Source of the DNA: Candidatus Nitrosacidococcus sp. I8
Lineage (GTDB): Bacteria; Pseudomonadota; Gammaproteobacteria; Nitrosococcales; Nitrosococcaceae
DNA length: 64,000 nt
Direction: 5' to 3'
Assembly: GCF_945836005.1 (NCBI RefSeq)
Contig: NZ_OX241534.1
Span: 1,412,275-1,476,274 of the forward strand
Shown here: positions 45,831 to 56,177 of the stretch, piece by piece
How the letters are laid out: each line of letters begins with the position of its first letter
Numbering within the stretch: position 1 is the first letter of the stretch
The notes under the pieces: model-generated
The model's database searches: none
The model's input: the letters and a program-made list of their open reading frames with translations, nothing else
Told to the model about the DNA's origin: nothing
Position numbers and translations under genes: made by a program

Positions 45831-46208
45831 CTAAAAGCGGAAAAAAACCCAACTAGGAGTTACTAAATTTGTATCTTCTAAGTTAGGACCAGTGTTAAAC
45901 CGCTTTTCAAAATCCCCTTTGCCATTAATATCTACTAAGTAATAAGAAGGGCCAGCCATGGGTGTAACTTTAACCTTATAGAGCTTACCGTTAAGCCGGT
46001 ATTCTTTGATTTGTGTATCTCCATCCTGAATAATTTTAACTTCAGGACCTGTAGAGTCGCCAGCCTGATCAGGTGCAGCAGGAGCACCTAAATCAGGTAA
46101 AGAACTTTCTATATCATCAATATCAGTAACTGCAAACCCCGGTATAGCAAATGAAATTCCAAGAATTAAAACGAGTAAATATAAATAATTAAGTATACGC
46201 ATAACCAT
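45831..46208 (-). CDS. DUF2782 family exported protein
   Basis: 125 aa. A signal peptide (about residues 1-26, MVMRILNYLYLLVLILGISFAIPGFA) is followed by an acidic linker and the DUF2782 core 'VKIIQDGDTQIKEYRLNGKLYKVKVTP..GPSYYLVD', ending 'SWVFFRF'. This small family is common next to polA in gammaproteobacteria, as here. The function is unknown. Starts at ATG 46208 and at the third residue are both possible. It converges with speA, with 3 bp between the stops. Confidence 0.88.
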   Translation of the reverse strand: MVMRILNYLYLLVLILGISFAIPGFAVTDIDDIESSLPDLGAPAAPDQAGDSTGPEVKIIQDGDTQIKEYRLNGKLYKVKVTPMAGPSYYLVDINGKGDFEKRFNTGPNLEDTNLVTPSWVFFRF

Positions 46209-46353: not shown

Positions 46354-49056
46354 ATGAAAACACCTACCTTAATTTTAGTTGATGGTTCTTTTTATCTATT
46401 TAGAGCCTTTCATGCACTACCTCCACTAATTACTTCTTACGGTCAGCCTACAGGAGCTATTTACGGGGTAGCCAATATGCTGCGTGGATTAATCAATGAA
46501 TATCAGCCCCAATATATTGGCGTGGTGTTTGACGCTAAAGGTAAAACTTTTCGCCATAATTTATACGATTCCTATAAAGCCCATCGTCCCCCTATTCCAG
46601 ATGAGCTTGCCGCTCAAATTCAGCTTCTTCATGAACTAATTTATGCTCTTGGGTTACCTCTACTATGTATTAATGGAGTAGAGGCGGATGATGTGATAGG
46701 CACCCTTGCTAAACAAGCAAGCACTCAAGGAATGATGACTATTATTTCTAGCGGAGATAAGGATCTCGCTCAATTGGTAAATAACAAAATCACCCTTATT
46801 AACCCCATGAATCAAACCAAGCTAGATCCTGAAGGAGTTAAAGAAAAGTTTGGGGTTTTTCCAAAACAGATTATTGATTATTTAACCCTAATGGGAGACT
46901 CATCGGATAACATTCCAGGAGTACCGGGAATAGGACCTAAAACAGCTGCAAAACTGCTTAATCAATATGAAACTCTAGATTCCCTATTAGAAAATATTGA
47001 AGAAATTAAAGGTAAATTAGGGGATAATCTCCGTGCTTATCAAGATCAATTCCCTCTAGTAAAGCAGCTTACTACTGTTTGCATTGATATACCTTTAGAG
47101 TTAACAGCAGCCGATTTAAAACCTAGAGAAGCTGATACCACTACTCTTTTCAAACTTTATAAAAAATTAGAGTTTAAAACTTGGCTTACCCAGCTTGAAG
47201 AATTCAGTAAAGAAAATAATGATCTCCTAGATCCTACTCTCACTTGCACTCCTCGCTATGAAACTATCTTTACTTTAGAGGCATTGAGTATTTGGCTAGC
47301 AAGACTGAAAAAAGCCAAATTATTTGCCTTTGACTTAGAGACAAATAGCTTAAATTATAAGGAAGCAGAAATTGTAGGGCTTTCTTTTGCAATTACACCC
47401 AATGAAGCTGCCTATGTCCCAATAGGGCATCATTATCTAACTGCACCTACTCAACTTTCTTGTGCGGAAGTTTTAAAGAAACTAAAACCCTTACTTGAAG
47501 ATTCTGGCTTAGGGAAAATTGGTCAAAACCTTAAATTTGATCGTAACGTACTGGCTAATTATGAAATTAGTTTAGAAGGTATTGTGCATGATTCCATGCT
47601 GGAATCTTATGTTTGGGACAGTACGGGATCTCGTCATAATCTAGATGCGCTGGCTTTAAAATATCTTCAGCAAAATACCATTACGTTTGAAGAAATTACC
47701 GGTAAAGGCACGAAAAAACTTACCTTTGATCAAGTAGATGTAGAAAGAGCTACGATTTATGCAGCTGAAGACGCAGATATTAGTCTGCAGCTTCATCATT
47801 ATTTTTGGCCAAAACTACAACAAAAACCCTCTCTTTGCCGGCTTTACCAAGCCCTAGAAGTTCCTCTTATCCCTGTTCTTTCCCATATGGAATGTCATGG
47901 AGTACTAGTAGATAAAGGTTTATTAAAAGACCAAAGTGATAAGATCACAATACAGTTAAAAGAATTGGAGCAATCTGTATTTGAGCTTGCAGAAGAATCT
48001 TTTAACTTAGCCTCCCCTAAGCAGTTACAAACCATACTCTATGATAAATTAAATCTCCCAGCAGTACGAAAAACCCCAACAGGTCAAGCTTCTACTTCAG
48101 AGGCTGTACTGCAAGAGCTTGCCCATATTCATCCACTACCTCGATTAATTCTTGAATATCGAACGCTACATAAATTAAAAACCACTTATACAGATCGCCT
48201 TCCTTTACAAATTAACCCCAGTACAGGGAGAATTCACACCTCTTATCATCAAGCAGCAGTATCAACAGGACGGCTTTCCTCCTCCGATCCTAATTTACAA
48301 AATATCCCGATTAAAACCCCTGAAGGAAGACAAATCCGGCGAGCATTTATTGCTCCACCGGGTTATTGTTTACTTGCTGCCGATTACTCTCAAATTGAAT
48401 TACGGATTATGGCCCACTTGTCTAATGATGAAGGATTACTTTCTGCATTTAATCAAGGAGAGGATATTCATCAACGCACTGCTGCTGAGATTTTTAATAC
48501 TTCTCTAAGGCAGGTTACTTCAGATCAACGCCGTAGTGCTAAAGCAATTAATTTTGGGCTAATTTATGGCATGTCAGCCCATGGGCTGGTAAGAGAATTG
48601 GGGATTAGTTATAGTGACGCACAAAATTACATGGATCGCTACTTTCAACGCTACCCTAAAGTAAAGGAATATATGGATAAAATATGCCAAGAAGCTAGAA
48701 GTTATGGATATGTAGAAACCTTATTTGGGCGGCGGCTTTATTTACCTGAAATCCATGCAAAACAATCCCAACAACGCCGGCAAGCAGAACGAGTTGCGAT
48801 TAATGCCCCTATGCAAGGTAGTGCTGCAGATATTATTAAAAAAGCGATGATTAATACTTATCAATGGCTACAGGATAAAACATACGATACTAGAATGATT
48901 ATGCAGGTTCATGATGAGCTTGTCTTTGAAGTGCCTGAGAATAAATTAGATAGGGTGATTCAGAGAGTTCAAGAGAGTATGAGCACTGCCGTTCAACTTA
49001 AAGTACCTCTCATCGTAGATATAGGTTATGGGTTTAACTGGGACACAGCCCATTAA
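46354..49056 (+). CDS. polA: DNA polymerase I
   Basis: 900 aa with all three domains. The 5'-3' exonuclease/FEN domain covers about 1-290 ('LILVDGSFYLFRAFHALPPL', 'VEADDVIGTLAKQA', 'GDSSDNIPGVPGIGPKTA'). The 3'-5' proofreading exonuclease covers about 310-490 with intact 'FDLETNSL' and 'YAAEDADI'. The polymerase domain carries motif A 'DYSQIELRIMAH', the O-helix 'RRSAKAINFGLIYGM' and motif C 'QVHDELVF'. It removes RNA primers and fills repair gaps. It is followed by a candidate sRNA and the opposing engB, an arrangement also seen in enterics and pseudomonads. Confidence 0.98.
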   Translation: MKTPTLILVDGSFYLFRAFHALPPLITSYGQPTGAIYGVANMLRGLINEYQPQYIGVVFDAKGKTFRHNLYDSYKAHRPPIPDELAAQIQLLHELIYALGLPLLCINGVEADDVIGTLAKQASTQGMMTIISSGDKDLAQLVNNKITLINPMNQTKLDPEGVKEKFGVFPKQIIDYLTLMGDSSDNIPGVPGIGPKTAAKLLNQYETLDSLLENIEEIKGKLGDNLRAYQDQFPLVKQLTTVCIDIPLELTAADLKPREADTTTLFKLYKKLEFKTWLTQLEEFSKENNDLLDPTLTCTPRYETIFTLEALSIWLARLKKAKLFAFDLETNSLNYKEAEIVGLSFAITPNEAAYVPIGHHYLTAPTQLSCAEVLKKLKPLLEDSGLGKIGQNLKFDRNVLANYEISLEGIVHDSMLESYVWDSTGSRHNLDALALKYLQQNTITFEEITGKGTKKLTFDQVDVERATIYAAEDADISLQLHHYFWPKLQQKPSLCRLYQALEVPLIPVLSHMECHGVLVDKGLLKDQSDKITIQLKELEQSVFELAEESFNLASPKQLQTILYDKLNLPAVRKTPTGQASTSEAVLQELAHIHPLPRLILEYRTLHKLKTTYTDRLPLQINPSTGRIHTSYHQAAVSTGRLSSSDPNLQNIPIKTPEGRQIRRAFIAPPGYCLLAADYSQIELRIMAHLSNDEGLLSAFNQGEDIHQRTAAEIFNTSLRQVTSDQRRSAKAINFGLIYGMSAHGLVRELGISYSDAQNYMDRYFQRYPKVKEYMDKICQEARSYGYVETLFGRRLYLPEIHAKQSQQRRQAERVAINAPMQGSAADIIKKAMINTYQWLQDKTYDTRMIMQVHDELVFEVPENKLDRVIQRVQESMSTAVQLKVPLIVDIGYGFNWDTAH

Positions 49057-49074: not shown

Positions 49075-49101
49075 GAACTTTTTCTTAGGCTAGCTGTCTT
49101 T
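49075..49101 (+). promoter_or_regulatory. Sigma-E/AlgU-like promoter upstream of the polA-engB sRNA candidate
   Basis: GAACTT (49075-49080), then 16 bp, then TCTTT (49097-49101), close to the extracytoplasmic stress consensus GAACTT-N16-TCTGA; the base before TCT is G as in E. coli RpoE sites. It lies 18 bp after the polA stop. Pseudomonas ErsA, at the same locus, is driven by the AlgU-type factor. Confidence 0.5.
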
Positions 49102-49107
49102 AACTCC

Positions 49108-49233
49108 ATAGGGTGTAGAAAATATCTATACCACTACCTGCCCCCCTCCCTGGGTAGGGTAAGTCTTAGTAGATCTGGATCTCCTAAACCAGATCTAGGG
49201 TTGCCCCGGTTTCCCCTTAACCGGGGTTTTTTT
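49108..49233 (+). ncRNA. Candidate Spot 42/ErsA-like small RNA between polA and engB
   Basis: About 126 nt from the predicted start near 49108 to the end of a strong terminator. Internal structure: hairpin AGATCTGG (49171-49178) with CCAGATCT (49189-49196), then the terminator. The word GTAGGGTA at 49154-49161 also begins enteric Spot 42. No open frame is present. The position matches spf of E. coli and ersA of Pseudomonas, both located between polA and engB. The terminator alone could serve polA, so the RNA is a prediction from synteny, promoter and structure. Confidence 0.5.
49204..49233 (+). terminator. Strong Rho-independent terminator after polA / sRNA candidate
   Basis: Perfect 8-bp GC-rich stem CCCCGGTT (49204-49211) with AACCGGGG (49219-49226), 7-nt loop, then seven T. 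Confidence 0.95.
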
Positions 49234-49276: not shown

Positions 49277-49879
49277 TTAGCTAAACCCAAACCAGCTATC
49301 TAGATGAACCTGAGCTTCTTTAACACCTGCTTTGGTTTGTGCGGAAAATAACTGTAATTCGGCAGTAGGAATTATTTCTCTAGCAAGTTGAGTTGCCTTT
49401 CTAAGCGCATCTAACCCAGGTCCTCGTTTCAACTTATCGCTTTTAGTTAATAAAATATATACTGATAAATCACAATCTCTACACCACTCAAGCATTTGAT
49501 AATCAAAGGGTTGAAGTAAATGACGAATATCCATCAATAGCACGATACCTCGGAGTGCTTGGCGCTGCTCTAAGTAACTACTGATATTTTTTTTCCATTG
49601 ATTTTTCATTTCCTGAGGAACTTTGGCATAACCATAGCCCGGCAAATCGACTAAATGACAAGTTAAGTTAAGCTGAAAAAAATTAATCATTTGAGTCCGC
49701 CCCGGGGTTTTACTGATTCGGGCTAACCCTTTGTTATTAGTAATTGCATTAATGGCACTGGATTTCCCCACATTAGATCGACCTGCAAAGGCCACCTCGA
49801 TTCCCTGATCTGGGGGAAGCTGAAATAAATGATAAGCACTTACTTGGTAAGTTGCTTGCTGATAAATAGAATGAGTCAT
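49277..49879 (-). CDS. engB: Ribosome biogenesis GTP-binding protein EngB (YihA/YsxC)
   Basis: 200 aa TRAFAC GTPase. G1 is 'GRSNVGKSS', G3 is 'LVDLPGYGYAKV', G4 is 'LLTKSDKLKRG' and G5 is 'LFSAQT'. It is essential in many bacteria for late assembly of the large ribosomal subunit. It converges with polA and diverges from the cytochrome c4 gene, a standard gammaproteobacterial arrangement. Confidence 0.96.
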   Translation of the reverse strand: MTHSIYQQATYQVSAYHLFQLPPDQGIEVAFAGRSNVGKSSAINAITNNKGLARISKTPGRTQMINFFQLNLTCHLVDLPGYGYAKVPQEMKNQWKKNISSYLEQRQALRGIVLLMDIRHLLQPFDYQMLEWCRDCDLSVYILLTKSDKLKRGPGLDALRKATQLAREIIPTAELQLFSAQTKAGVKEAQVHLDSWFGFS

Positions 49880-52994: not shown

Positions 52995-53645
52995 CAATCT
53001 TCGATTGGTTCATCCAGTTTTTTTTGTATACATACCGCTTCTACCCTACATCGCTTCACGCTACGTGCAAGAGGTGCAACGTACTATAAATGTTCCATTT
53101 TTCCGTCCGTCACACCTTGGCAAGGGGACCCGCTAGCTCGTCCCCGTTGCATCCCTATGGCCGAGAGAGATTTCAGCTCTCCCTCCGGATACGCATTGAC
53201 CAACCTTATACTGTTTGGGTATACACTAACCTAAACAGATGCTATACTCGATCTCCCGGTGTAGTCCCCCCCTTGGCCATGCGGAGCTTGAATCCAGTTA
53301 CTCGTCCTGTTCTTAGTGCATTCGGGTGCATTTTTGTATAGAGTCTGATTCTATGAAATCATACGAATTGCCATTCATACTTATCCCATTGTTATTCATG
53401 CGTTTTACCCTATCACCTAATATAGAAGATTATGAAGTCTCGTCTACGCTTGCACAGATCCAATTCCCTCCGTTTTCACTGCAATACGCCATGCGGATCG
53501 CTGTCCATCGTCTTCTGGACGAACATGAGGGGCACTCTATAAAGCTTGCCGTCAGTCAGCCGGTTCGATGGGGCAATAGATGGCAATAGCACGCCAAACA
53601 AGCTCTGCACGACACACATCCGTTTCCGCATAGGAGTTGGGTGAG
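52995..53645. other. G+C-richer intergenic stretch of unknown content
   Basis: 650 bp between the AbiH gene and the restriction gene, clearly richer in G+C than the host chromosome. Open frames here (for example 53090-53341) have implausible composition and no ribosome site, so I do not call them. It may hold the promoter and leader of the restriction gene, a structured RNA, or the debris of another element. No controller-protein box can be identified by eye. Confidence 0.45.
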
Positions 53646-56177
53646 ATGTACGGTAGCCTATTTCCTCTTAGTGGTATAACCGAATTTTATCGGGTTGATG
53701 CTGTGCTCAAACTCGATTCGCGTCGGCGGTCCGATCTTGGTCAGTACATGACGCCTGCACCCATTGCGCGGTTTATGGCGAGTCTGGTTACGGATATCTC
53801 TGGCGATATCCGTTTGCTAGATCCCGGTGCAGGTGTTGGCTCTTTAACGGCAGCCTTCGTCGATCGGATCAGTAGGGTGCCAAAGAAACCCCGGTCAGTA
53901 ACGCTCGTGGCTTACGAGATTGAGTCGGTACTCACTAGCTATCTTCGAAACACACTGGACGAAGCGGTGACTCAGTGCAGCCACGCGCAGATAAAGACCA
54001 GCAGTACTCTGCGTGAGCAAGACTTCATTCTTGACCATAGATATGGGGAGCAACCGGATATCTTCAGCCCAGCGTGCGATGAGAGTAGCTTCTCCCACGT
54101 CATCATGAATCCGCCCTACAAAAAGATCAATTCCGCCTCCATACACCGTGCGGCACTTCGTAAGGCAGGCATCGAAACCTCCAATCTCTACACTGCTTTC
54201 ATGTATCTAGCCGCGCAACACCTCCGTGAAGGCGGTGAGATGGTTGCCATCGTCCCTAGATCATTTTGTAATGGCCCTTACTTTAGGCCCTTTCGGAAGC
54301 AATTCTTTGACATGATGGGTCTGCGCCATATCCACATTTTCAAAAAGCGTAACAGTGCATTTAATGGCGATGAAGTTCTGCAGGAGAACATCATCCTGCA
54401 CGCGGTAAAAGGCACCCCACCTAGCAACGTGAGGATTACCACTAGCCACGGCGGCAATTTTGAGACAACTGCAGATAATGAGATGTGCGTTGCCGAAGAC
54501 ATGACTCAACGCACTGTTTCATATAGGAGCGTAATCCGCACTAACGATCCCGACCGCTTTGTCCATATCGCCACTAATGATCTCGAACAGAAGATCGTAG
54601 ACCGTATGGCGCATTTTACGGCGAGTCTGGCTGATCTTGGGGTGGAAGTCTCCACTGGTCCAGTGGTTGATTTCCGGCTAAAGGACGATTTGTGCGCCCA
54701 GCCCGAAAAGGGAACCGTTCCACTTCTTTATGCTGCACACTTTCAAAACGGTATGTTGGTCTGGCCCAAAGCCATAAAAAAGCCCAACGCAATTCGTGTG
54801 TCCCCAGAAAGTCGCAGGTGGCTTTGGGAGAAGAAAGGTCATTTCGTGGTGACAAAACGCTTCACATCAAAAGAGGAGCGACGCCGCATCGTGGCCTCGG
54901 TATATGCCTCGGAACTACCTGGTGAACTTGTCGGCTTTGAAAATCACCTCAATGTCTTTCATACGAAACAAATGGGGCTGCCCGAAGCTCTGGCACGGGG
55001 ACTGGTCCTCTATCTCAACAGTAGTCTTGTGGACTGCTACTTCCGGCAGTTCAACGGTCACACGCAGGTCAACGCGACCGATCTTCGGTCACTTAGATAT
55101 CCACAACGAGAGGTTTTAGAGCGCATAGGACAACAGGCGAACCGTGCAACCCTCTCCCAACAGCACATTGACACCATCATTGAGGGGGAGCTTGCTCACA
55201 TGACCGACGATAAAAACCCACTACGTGCACAGCAAAAAATAGACGATGCCCTAAAAATCCTGACGGTGCTCGGAATGCCGCATGGGCAGCGCAACGAGCG
55301 GTCGGCACTAACTCTGCTGGCACTACTCAATCTTAAACCCGAGGGAACGTGGGACGTTTTGAAACGTCCGCTAATCGGCATAACGCCGATAATGGACTTC
55401 ACGCGAGGGCACTATGGTCGTGAATATGCACCCAATACGCGCGAAACTTTCCGCCGCCAGACTATGCATCAATTCGTGGAGGCAGGAATTGCCCTCTATA
55501 ATCCCGATGATCCAGCACGTCCGGTCAATAGCCCGAAGGCTTGTTATCAAATAAGCGAAGAAGCGTATACAGTCATCCTAACTCTCGGGACTGACAAGTG
55601 GCAGGTGACACTCGACACTTACCTTAAAGGGCGGGAAACGCTGGCCGCCAAGTGGGCAAAACACCGGAAGATGCAAATGATTCCTGTGCAGGTCGCGGAT
55701 GGTAAGGAAATCACGCTCACGCCGGGTGCACACAGTGAACTTATTAAGAAGATTATTGCCGACTTCGCTCCGCGTTTCGCACCGGAGGCCGAAGTAATCT
55801 ATGTGGGAGATACAGGCAACAAGGCTGGCTATTTTCAGAAAGAACGACTGGCAATGCTAGGCGTTACCGTGGATAAGCATGGCAAGATGCCAGATGTGGT
55901 GCTGTATTTTGGAAAGAAAGACTGGCTGTTGCTGGTTGAATCCGTAACCAGTCACGGCCCCGTCGATTCCAAAAGGCACAATGAACTGGCCAATCTGTTC
56001 AAAGGCGCAAAACCTAGCCTTGTGTACATCACAGCATTCCCTCACCGAGGTATCATGGGGCGGTATTTGATCGACATCTCATGGGAAACGGAAGTTTGGT
56101 GCGCCGATGCACCCACTCATCTCATCCATTTCAACGGTGAGCGTTTTTTAGGCCCTTACGAGAAGGGTGAACAATGA
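53646..56177 (+). CDS. Single-chain type II restriction-modification protein: N6-adenine methylase fused to BsuBI/PstI-type endonuclease
   Basis: 843 aa from ATG 53646, which has GGAG nine bases upstream (TTG 53637 is too close to it). N-terminal half: Eco57I/N6-adenine methylase with 'YMTPAPIARFMASL', SAM site 'RLLDPGAGVGSLTAAF', catalytic NPPY (54108-54119) and 'LREGGEMVAIVPRSF', then a target-recognition-like middle ('FENHLNVFHTKQMGLP'). C-terminal 300 residues: BsuBI/PstI endonuclease with 'GDTGNKAGYFQKERLAMLGV', the PD-(D/E)xK-like 'MPDVVLYFGKKDWLLLVES' and 'KRHNELANLFKGAKPSLVYITAF'. In BsuBI and PstI the two activities are separate genes; here they are one chain. Base composition is much richer in G+C than neighbours, indicating transfer. 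Cognate site CTGCAG is only a guess from homology. Confidence 0.9.
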   Translation: MYGSLFPLSGITEFYRVDAVLKLDSRRRSDLGQYMTPAPIARFMASLVTDISGDIRLLDPGAGVGSLTAAFVDRISRVPKKPRSVTLVAYEIESVLTSYLRNTLDEAVTQCSHAQIKTSSTLREQDFILDHRYGEQPDIFSPACDESSFSHVIMNPPYKKINSASIHRAALRKAGIETSNLYTAFMYLAAQHLREGGEMVAIVPRSFCNGPYFRPFRKQFFDMMGLRHIHIFKKRNSAFNGDEVLQENIILHAVKGTPPSNVRITTSHGGNFETTADNEMCVAEDMTQRTVSYRSVIRTNDPDRFVHIATNDLEQKIVDRMAHFTASLADLGVEVSTGPVVDFRLKDDLCAQPEKGTVPLLYAAHFQNGMLVWPKAIKKPNAIRVSPESRRWLWEKKGHFVVTKRFTSKEERRRIVASVYASELPGELVGFENHLNVFHTKQMGLPEALARGLVLYLNSSLVDCYFRQFNGHTQVNATDLRSLRYPQREVLERIGQQANRATLSQQHIDTIIEGELAHMTDDKNPLRAQQKIDDALKILTVLGMPHGQRNERSALTLLALLNLKPEGTWDVLKRPLIGITPIMDFTRGHYGREYAPNTRETFRRQTMHQFVEAGIALYNPDDPARPVNSPKACYQISEEAYTVILTLGTDKWQVTLDTYLKGRETLAAKWAKHRKMQMIPVQVADGKEITLTPGAHSELIKKIIADFAPRFAPEAEVIYVGDTGNKAGYFQKERLAMLGVTVDKHGKMPDVVLYFGKKDWLLLVESVTSHGPVDSKRHNELANLFKGAKPSLVYITAFPHRGIMGRYLIDISWETEVWCADAPTHLIHFNGERFLGPYEKGEQ

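Follow-up and report, generated by a model that had tools for sequence, protein, structure and literature searches.

A predicted small RNA gene with a sigma-E-type promoter between polA and engB of Candidatus Nitrosacidococcus, and its relatives in Gammaproteobacteria

A short regulatory RNA is almost certainly made between polA and engB in Candidatus Nitrosacidococcus sp. I8, in the 64-kb stretch of DNA analyzed here (the window). Very probably, it is a trans-acting small RNA (sRNA) induced by sigma-E and repressing translation through its loops, and a member of an ancient family attached to the polA/engB locus. The window RNA is an ordinary member of a seemingly widespread family of stress sRNAs, and the greater interest lies in this family. 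Databases so far contain only three of its branches, scattered ones (anti-hemB, sX13, and ErsA). What is new is a locus-wide, stress-promoter-linked family that would unite these three separately curated Rfam families.

The sRNA gene of the window and its close relatives

The gene, its parts, and its neighbors in the window are as follows.

46354–49056, + strand: polA, DNA polymerase I (NF004397, 1202.9 bits, above cut-off; also TIGR00593)
49075–49080, + strand: −35 element of the sigma-E (RpoE/AlgU) type, exact GAACTT
49097–49101, + strand: −10 element TCTTT, after a spacer of 16
49108–49233, + strand: predicted sRNA of ∼126 nt, its start placed from the promoter (MFE z −3.66)
49109–49136, + strand: SL0, 5′ hairpin, kept in relatives with a differing sequence
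49137–49158, + strand: SL1, with the anti-Shine–Dalgarno-like loop CCCUCCCU at 49144–49151
49170–49197, + strand: SL2, with the loop AUCUCCUAAA at 49179–49188
49203–49233, + strand: SL3, predicted intrinsic terminator, with the C-rich loop UCCCCUU (49212–49218) and a U tail
49277–49879, − strand: engB/ysxC (TIGR03598, 233.5 bits, above cut-off)

polA and engB are convergent and, as the earlier note had claimed from synteny, the predicted sRNA lies between them, its 3′ end ∼43 bp from the 3′ end of engB. The promoter claimed there, GAACTT-N16-TCTTT, is found exactly at 49075–49101 and nowhere else in the window, where chance would give 0.23 matches. The structured 126-nt region with a strong terminator is borne out as well: segment 49108–49233 folds at −51.5 kcal/mol, none of 200 shuffled sequences does as well, and the SL3 hairpin (49203–49227) is followed by a run of Us. 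The single internal hairpin of that proposal has to be replaced by three (SL0, SL1, and SL2), making four with the terminator. A small-ORF explanation was rejected: the only ORFs touching the region have 21 and 23 amino acids, none lies within the sRNA, and the covariation favors an RNA. A structure on the antisense strand was also rejected (z −1.53); the hairpin in the direction of engB has no U run.

Elsewhere in the window, a gene for an AbiH abortive-infection protein (PF14253; 52101–52994) is followed by an ORF in which a methylase is fused to a BsuBI/PstI-type restriction endonuclease (53637–56177). The segment 52101–56177 constitutes a small defense island adjoining dsbA.

The window genome (1.85 Mb) was compared with relatives of the same family, one of genus g2 (G001) and four of genus g3 (G002–G005). 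The gene for subunit A of ammonia/methane monooxygenase (PF02461) is present in all five family genomes tested, the window's own included. In the four g3 genomes, polA is followed by GAACTTTCT-N-GTCTTT (GTCACT in one), then by the same hairpins and by engB. The GAACTT of the −35 element is kept in all four and the promoter is conserved, while the sequence separating polA from the −35 element is not. The RNA of every relative folds with z from −5.0 to −8.0, and SL0 is preserved through compensating changes. In the sister genus g2 (L007:2118–2242, − strand), SL2 and SL3 are present, but GAACTT and the SL1 loop are lost, so that promoter and SL1 are dispensable there, a point against the main reading. 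Among the fetched engB loci of the neighboring family f2, none has the polA/engB sRNA arrangement. A lack of conservation in relatives had been set beforehand, in the earlier note, as part of what could overturn the claim; promoter and hairpins are kept in close relatives and far beyond.

Distribution, promoter, and structure in the class

A covariance model (R1) was built from SL1–SL3 only of six family sequences. Among 80 named engB loci, 42 convergent polA–engB pairs were identified. In the gaps read by eye, GAACTT-N-TC followed by C-rich hairpins is seen in Methylothermaceae, Neptuniibacter, Neptunomonas, Pseudomonas, and further lineages. Over 645 kb of engB loci, R1 gives 33 matches, the best with E 2e-9, and all but one lie past the 3′ end of engB on the strand facing it; the genera matched include Ectothiorhodospira, Acidithiobacillus, Nitrosomonas, and Pseudomonas. 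At E 0.01 or better, matches occur in whole genomes from 92 of 276 members of the class and 75 of its 216 genera (Gammaproteobacteria being taken in the GTDB sense, with the former Beta included). Outside the class, only six weak matches were found among 397 genomes of the phylum, and the two loci read (L270 and L277) are not beside polA or engB; an extension of the family beyond the class was therefore rejected.

The 89 class loci adjoin both polA and engB (37), polA (13), engB (17), or neither (22). Thus, 67 of the 89 adjoin at least one of the two genes, and 63 of these 67 are on the polA strand, convergent to engB as in the window. The covariance model is blind to neighbors, so that this clustering constitutes independent evidence of a real and positionally conserved gene. 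The 22 matches adjoining neither gene speak against the main reading.

The motif GAACT[TC]-N15-18-TC is present upstream of 67 of 106 family matches (the 89 fetched class loci and 17 named loci), versus 1.2 expected from mononucleotide shuffles. In the promoters of class matches the spacer is mostly 16 (46/57), and the distance from the −10 element to SL1 is 16–39 nt in 56 of the 57 motif-bearing class matches. The window RNA has the motif at the same place, shortly 5′ of SL1 (34 nt), together with the polA/engB linkage and the C-rich loops. In the 67 promoter-bearing matches, the SL0 segment folds with a mean of −9.5 kcal/mol, against −4.0 kcal/mol when shuffled.

One hundred sequences were aligned to R1 for covariation. 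That alignment is fitted to the model, and so biased toward it, but the margins are large: 93.1% of paired cells can pair, against 69.3% in column shuffles; double-change cells number 592 against 149.8 ± 12.6; and changes on both sides are seen in 26 of 27 base pairs. The score collapses when pairing partners are shifted by one base. Across the family, the stems vary and the loops are conserved, with CUCCCU in SL1 (76/100), a C-rich SL2 (82/100; a loop of the UUCCCCAA type in most relatives), and a C-rich SL3 (86/100).

These data bear on the simplest alternative, a mere 3′ untranslated region of polA with its terminator, structured and C-rich, with neither a regulatory role nor a promoter of its own. 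The polA stop is just 18 bp upstream of the −35 element, and SL3 is the sole terminator found downstream of polA, as that alternative would have it. However, the promoter with its fixed spacing is conserved in dozens of genera, the sRNA occurs also beside engB without polA (17/89), and the promoter is kept in 12 of the 22 matches far from both genes. In addition, the conserved loops are carried on covarying stems, several genomes have tandem copies, and the relatives sX13, ErsA, and anti-hemB are known as separate transcripts. We give very little credence to a polA trailer and retain an sRNA gene of its own.

Two to four tandem copies of the sRNA occur in several genera (L151:1551–2285, − strand; L158, L046, L138, L170, L154, L159, and G119:C7:46013–46306). 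Mostly beside engB/polA, they suggest an evolution of copy number. The 12 promoter-bearing matches away from both genes (L130, L142, L145, L147, L159, L161, L164, L172, L174, L181, L183, and L192) would represent relocated genes or additional copies. A second copy recurs in three genomes of genus g25.

Relations to known RNA families

At the gathering level, no Rfam family matches at 49075–49233. With relaxed thresholds, the best four are anti-hemB (34.1 bits), ErsA (24.5), sX13 (22.2), and sbrA (19.9). A second covariance model (R2) was built from 66 sequences, with the window, its family, Pseudomonas, and the Xanthomonadaceae sX13 excluded. On the 64-kb window, R2 gives a single match, at 49136–49233 (E 2.2e-12), and on the whole window genome again a single one (67.9 bits, E 6.3e-11), which places the window RNA in the family defined by R1 and R2.

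The nearest Rfam family, anti-hemB (RF02837; ncS04 of Burkholderia cenocepacia), was not named in the earlier note. Its match to the window has E 3.3e-6 over 601 bases, and the order of elements is the same, a hairpin with a CCUCCCUG loop and then a GC-rich terminator. The window RNA is below the gathering score of 49.5 bits, as are most of its relatives. In most class genomes the matches of the anti-hemB model and of R1 coincide in position, and 15 of 276 genomes exceed the anti-hemB cut-off. In several of the sampled sequences above the cut-off (L206, L209, and L211), SL2 is replaced by a middle segment that is short or altered. R2, trained among others on L207, L209, and a small number of loci also above the anti-hemB cut-off, detects the top anti-hemB locus, L206, at E 5.1e-6; this locus adjoins neither polA nor engB.

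In Xanthomonadaceae, sX13 (RF02232) lies directly 3′ of polA and has stable stems and C-rich loops, as in the window. True sX13 loci are detected by both R1 and R2 (R2 E 1.8e-6 to 5.2e-6), and the three loci above the sX13 cut-off all adjoin polA. The window RNA scores 22.2 bits on the sX13 model against a gathering score of 50, and the first loop of sX13 is of the AUCCCCUGG type, unlike in the window RNA. engB is not adjacent to polA in these three sX13 loci, and in the sole sX13 locus read by eye (L227) a sigma-E-type promoter was not seen.

ErsA (RF01719, Pseudomon-1), like the window RNA, is encoded on the same strand as polA, in the gap before engB. Its promoter is of the sigma-22 (AlgU) type, GAACTT-N16/17-TC, which the conserved window motif matches in sequence, and the C-rich loops of SL2 and of the terminator are common to both RNAs. 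ErsA is without the CUCCCU hairpin SL1 and has a U-rich unpaired domain for pairing with anr; its Hfq-dependent partners are algC, amrZ, and anr. R2 finds the ErsA loci at the right place, with E 7.7e-5 to 1.3e-3. The designation as an ErsA-type RNA with a promoter of the stress-sigma type stands well as far as the mode of action goes, and homology of the window RNA with ErsA, suggested by these R2 matches, is weakly supported.

Spot 42 (RF00021) occupies the same locus with the same orientation in Enterobacterales and Vibrio; it is an RNA transcribed under CRP/cAMP control, with targets of the galK type. The GAACTT promoter was looked for in Spot 42 loci and not found. The Spot 42 model gives 13.5 bits (E 8.7) on the window, and R2 does not detect the Spot 42 loci (E 0.28–0.42). 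The locus alone is common to both, homology is not supported, and the Spot 42 part of the earlier designation falls.

A strict orthologue of Spot 42 (spf) or ErsA, with targets among gal and carbon genes or algC, has in its favor the shared locus and strand, the ErsA-type promoter, and the 24.5 bits on the ErsA model. The covariance check proposed for these two families leaves both below their gathering scores (50 bits for ErsA, 80 for Spot 42), ErsA is devoid of SL1, which carries the most conserved loop of the family, and Spot 42 escapes R2. Strict orthology is thus improbable, and membership in a broader family is preferred.

Anti-hemB, sX13, and ErsA stand in Rfam 15 as separate families without a clan, and the literature searched, thin in subscription papers, gave none treating the three together. 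R2 detects loci of anti-hemB, of sX13, and, weakly, of ErsA, so that the three curated entries appear to belong to a single family, of which ErsA, without SL1, is the most derived.

Convergence would offer a different account: C-rich hairpin RNAs would have arisen repeatedly at this locus, with the window RNA, sX13, anti-hemB, and ErsA as analogues. The models are indeed short and low in information, and the ar14 RNAs present a similar three-hairpin anti-Shine–Dalgarno design (PMC10746234), with an Rfam model that weakly matches several loci. However, locus, strand, promoter type, distance from promoter to SL1, order of hairpins, and loop sequences all coincide, and the reciprocal models recover each other. 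We regard repeated origin as unlikely and keep to common descent. The ar14/NfeR1 RNAs themselves (cuckoo RNAs of Alphaproteobacteria, RF02344) have three hairpins with anti-Shine–Dalgarno loops CCUCCUCCC on variable stems (PMC10746234, PMC3927594). The NfeR1 promoter is of the sigma-70 type, unlike that of the window RNA, and the ar14 model has no match at the window spot at E up to 10. In other Gammaproteobacteria, that model gives 28–41 bits at the same spot (L123:1496–1599, L124, L128, and L039), sequence matches hinting at a wider relationship of anti-Shine–Dalgarno sRNAs.

Predicted mode of action and meaning

The window genome contains rpoE and hfq, with products above the cut-offs (curated for RpoE), and a gene for an RseA-like anti-sigma factor adjoins rpoE. 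Upstream of rpoE is GAACTA-N16-TCTCT (L251, upstream of 2061, − strand), and relatives have GAACTA-N16-TCTAT in this position, as expected if sigma-E recognizes GAACTW-N16-TCT. Autoregulation of rpoE is likely from this motif, and the promoter motif of the sRNA likewise points to dependence on sigma-E.

The sequence CCUCC is the core of the anti-Shine–Dalgarno at the 3′ end of 16S rRNA. The apical loops CCUCCCU, CUCCU, and CCCCUU of the window RNA, all C-rich, resemble it. Under envelope stress, sigma-E (RpoE) would be freed from the RseA-like anti-sigma factor and would transcribe the ∼126-nt RNA from GAACTT-N16-TCTTT, with a stop at SL3; some of the RNA may also arise by read-through from polA. 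The loops would then pair with G-rich sites of the Shine–Dalgarno type in certain mRNAs and block translation.

Without the help of Hfq, sX13 represses mRNAs through C-rich loops directed at G-rich (4G) motifs close to the start codon (PMC3771888). ErsA depends on sigma-22 and pairs with the ribosome-binding site (RBS) of algC, with Hfq (PMC6321483, PMC5819304). In NfeR1, anti-Shine–Dalgarno loops in three hairpins silence through occlusion of the RBS (PMC10746234). An ErsA-type promoter combined with loops of the sX13/NfeR1 type would make a translational repressor induced by sigma-E and acting via its loops. The need for Hfq differs between the known cases, ErsA requiring it and sX13 not, and either may apply to the window RNA.

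Among the 51 predicted genes of the window, with start sites that are unreliable, the best loop-to-RBS duplexes have a median of −7.9 kcal/mol versus −8.6 kcal/mol for shuffled loops; this lack of an advantage over shuffled loops and the failure of hfq as a shared target (below) speak against the main reading. The gene for a DUF2782 protein (45831–46208, − strand), divergent from polA and with the upstream DNA AAGGGGGACATGGTT, has before its start AAGGGG, complementary to the SL3 loop CCCCUU, and is a possible candidate target. sX13 is known to repress hfq; as a family-wide target hfq was tried and rejected, since the RBS of hfq contains GGGAG in 1 of 30 sRNA genomes versus 2 of 22 in the comparison set. 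In the window's family, the hfq site is AGGGAG in three of four cases; the exception, g2 (AGGAG), is the genus without the SL1 loop, a single coincidence that is only a lead.

On the whole, we lean toward one ancestral anti-Shine–Dalgarno sRNA, driven by sigma-E and established beside polA/engB early in Gammaproteobacteria, from which ErsA, sX13, anti-hemB, and the window RNA would descend. It would be a core riboregulator of envelope stress, unrecognized in most of the class, and Spot 42, at the same locus, may have drifted from it or taken its place. The class-wide searches answer the first half of the question left open by the sX13 paper (PMC3771888) with yes, for about one third of the 276 class genomes at strict settings, and they add a promoter that in most cases is of the sigma-E type. 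Taking the RNAs as a single family allows testable predictions in many organisms without sRNA annotation, including the ammonia oxidizer of the window, and suggests that translation repression by sigma-E via a C-rich sRNA may be a general feature.
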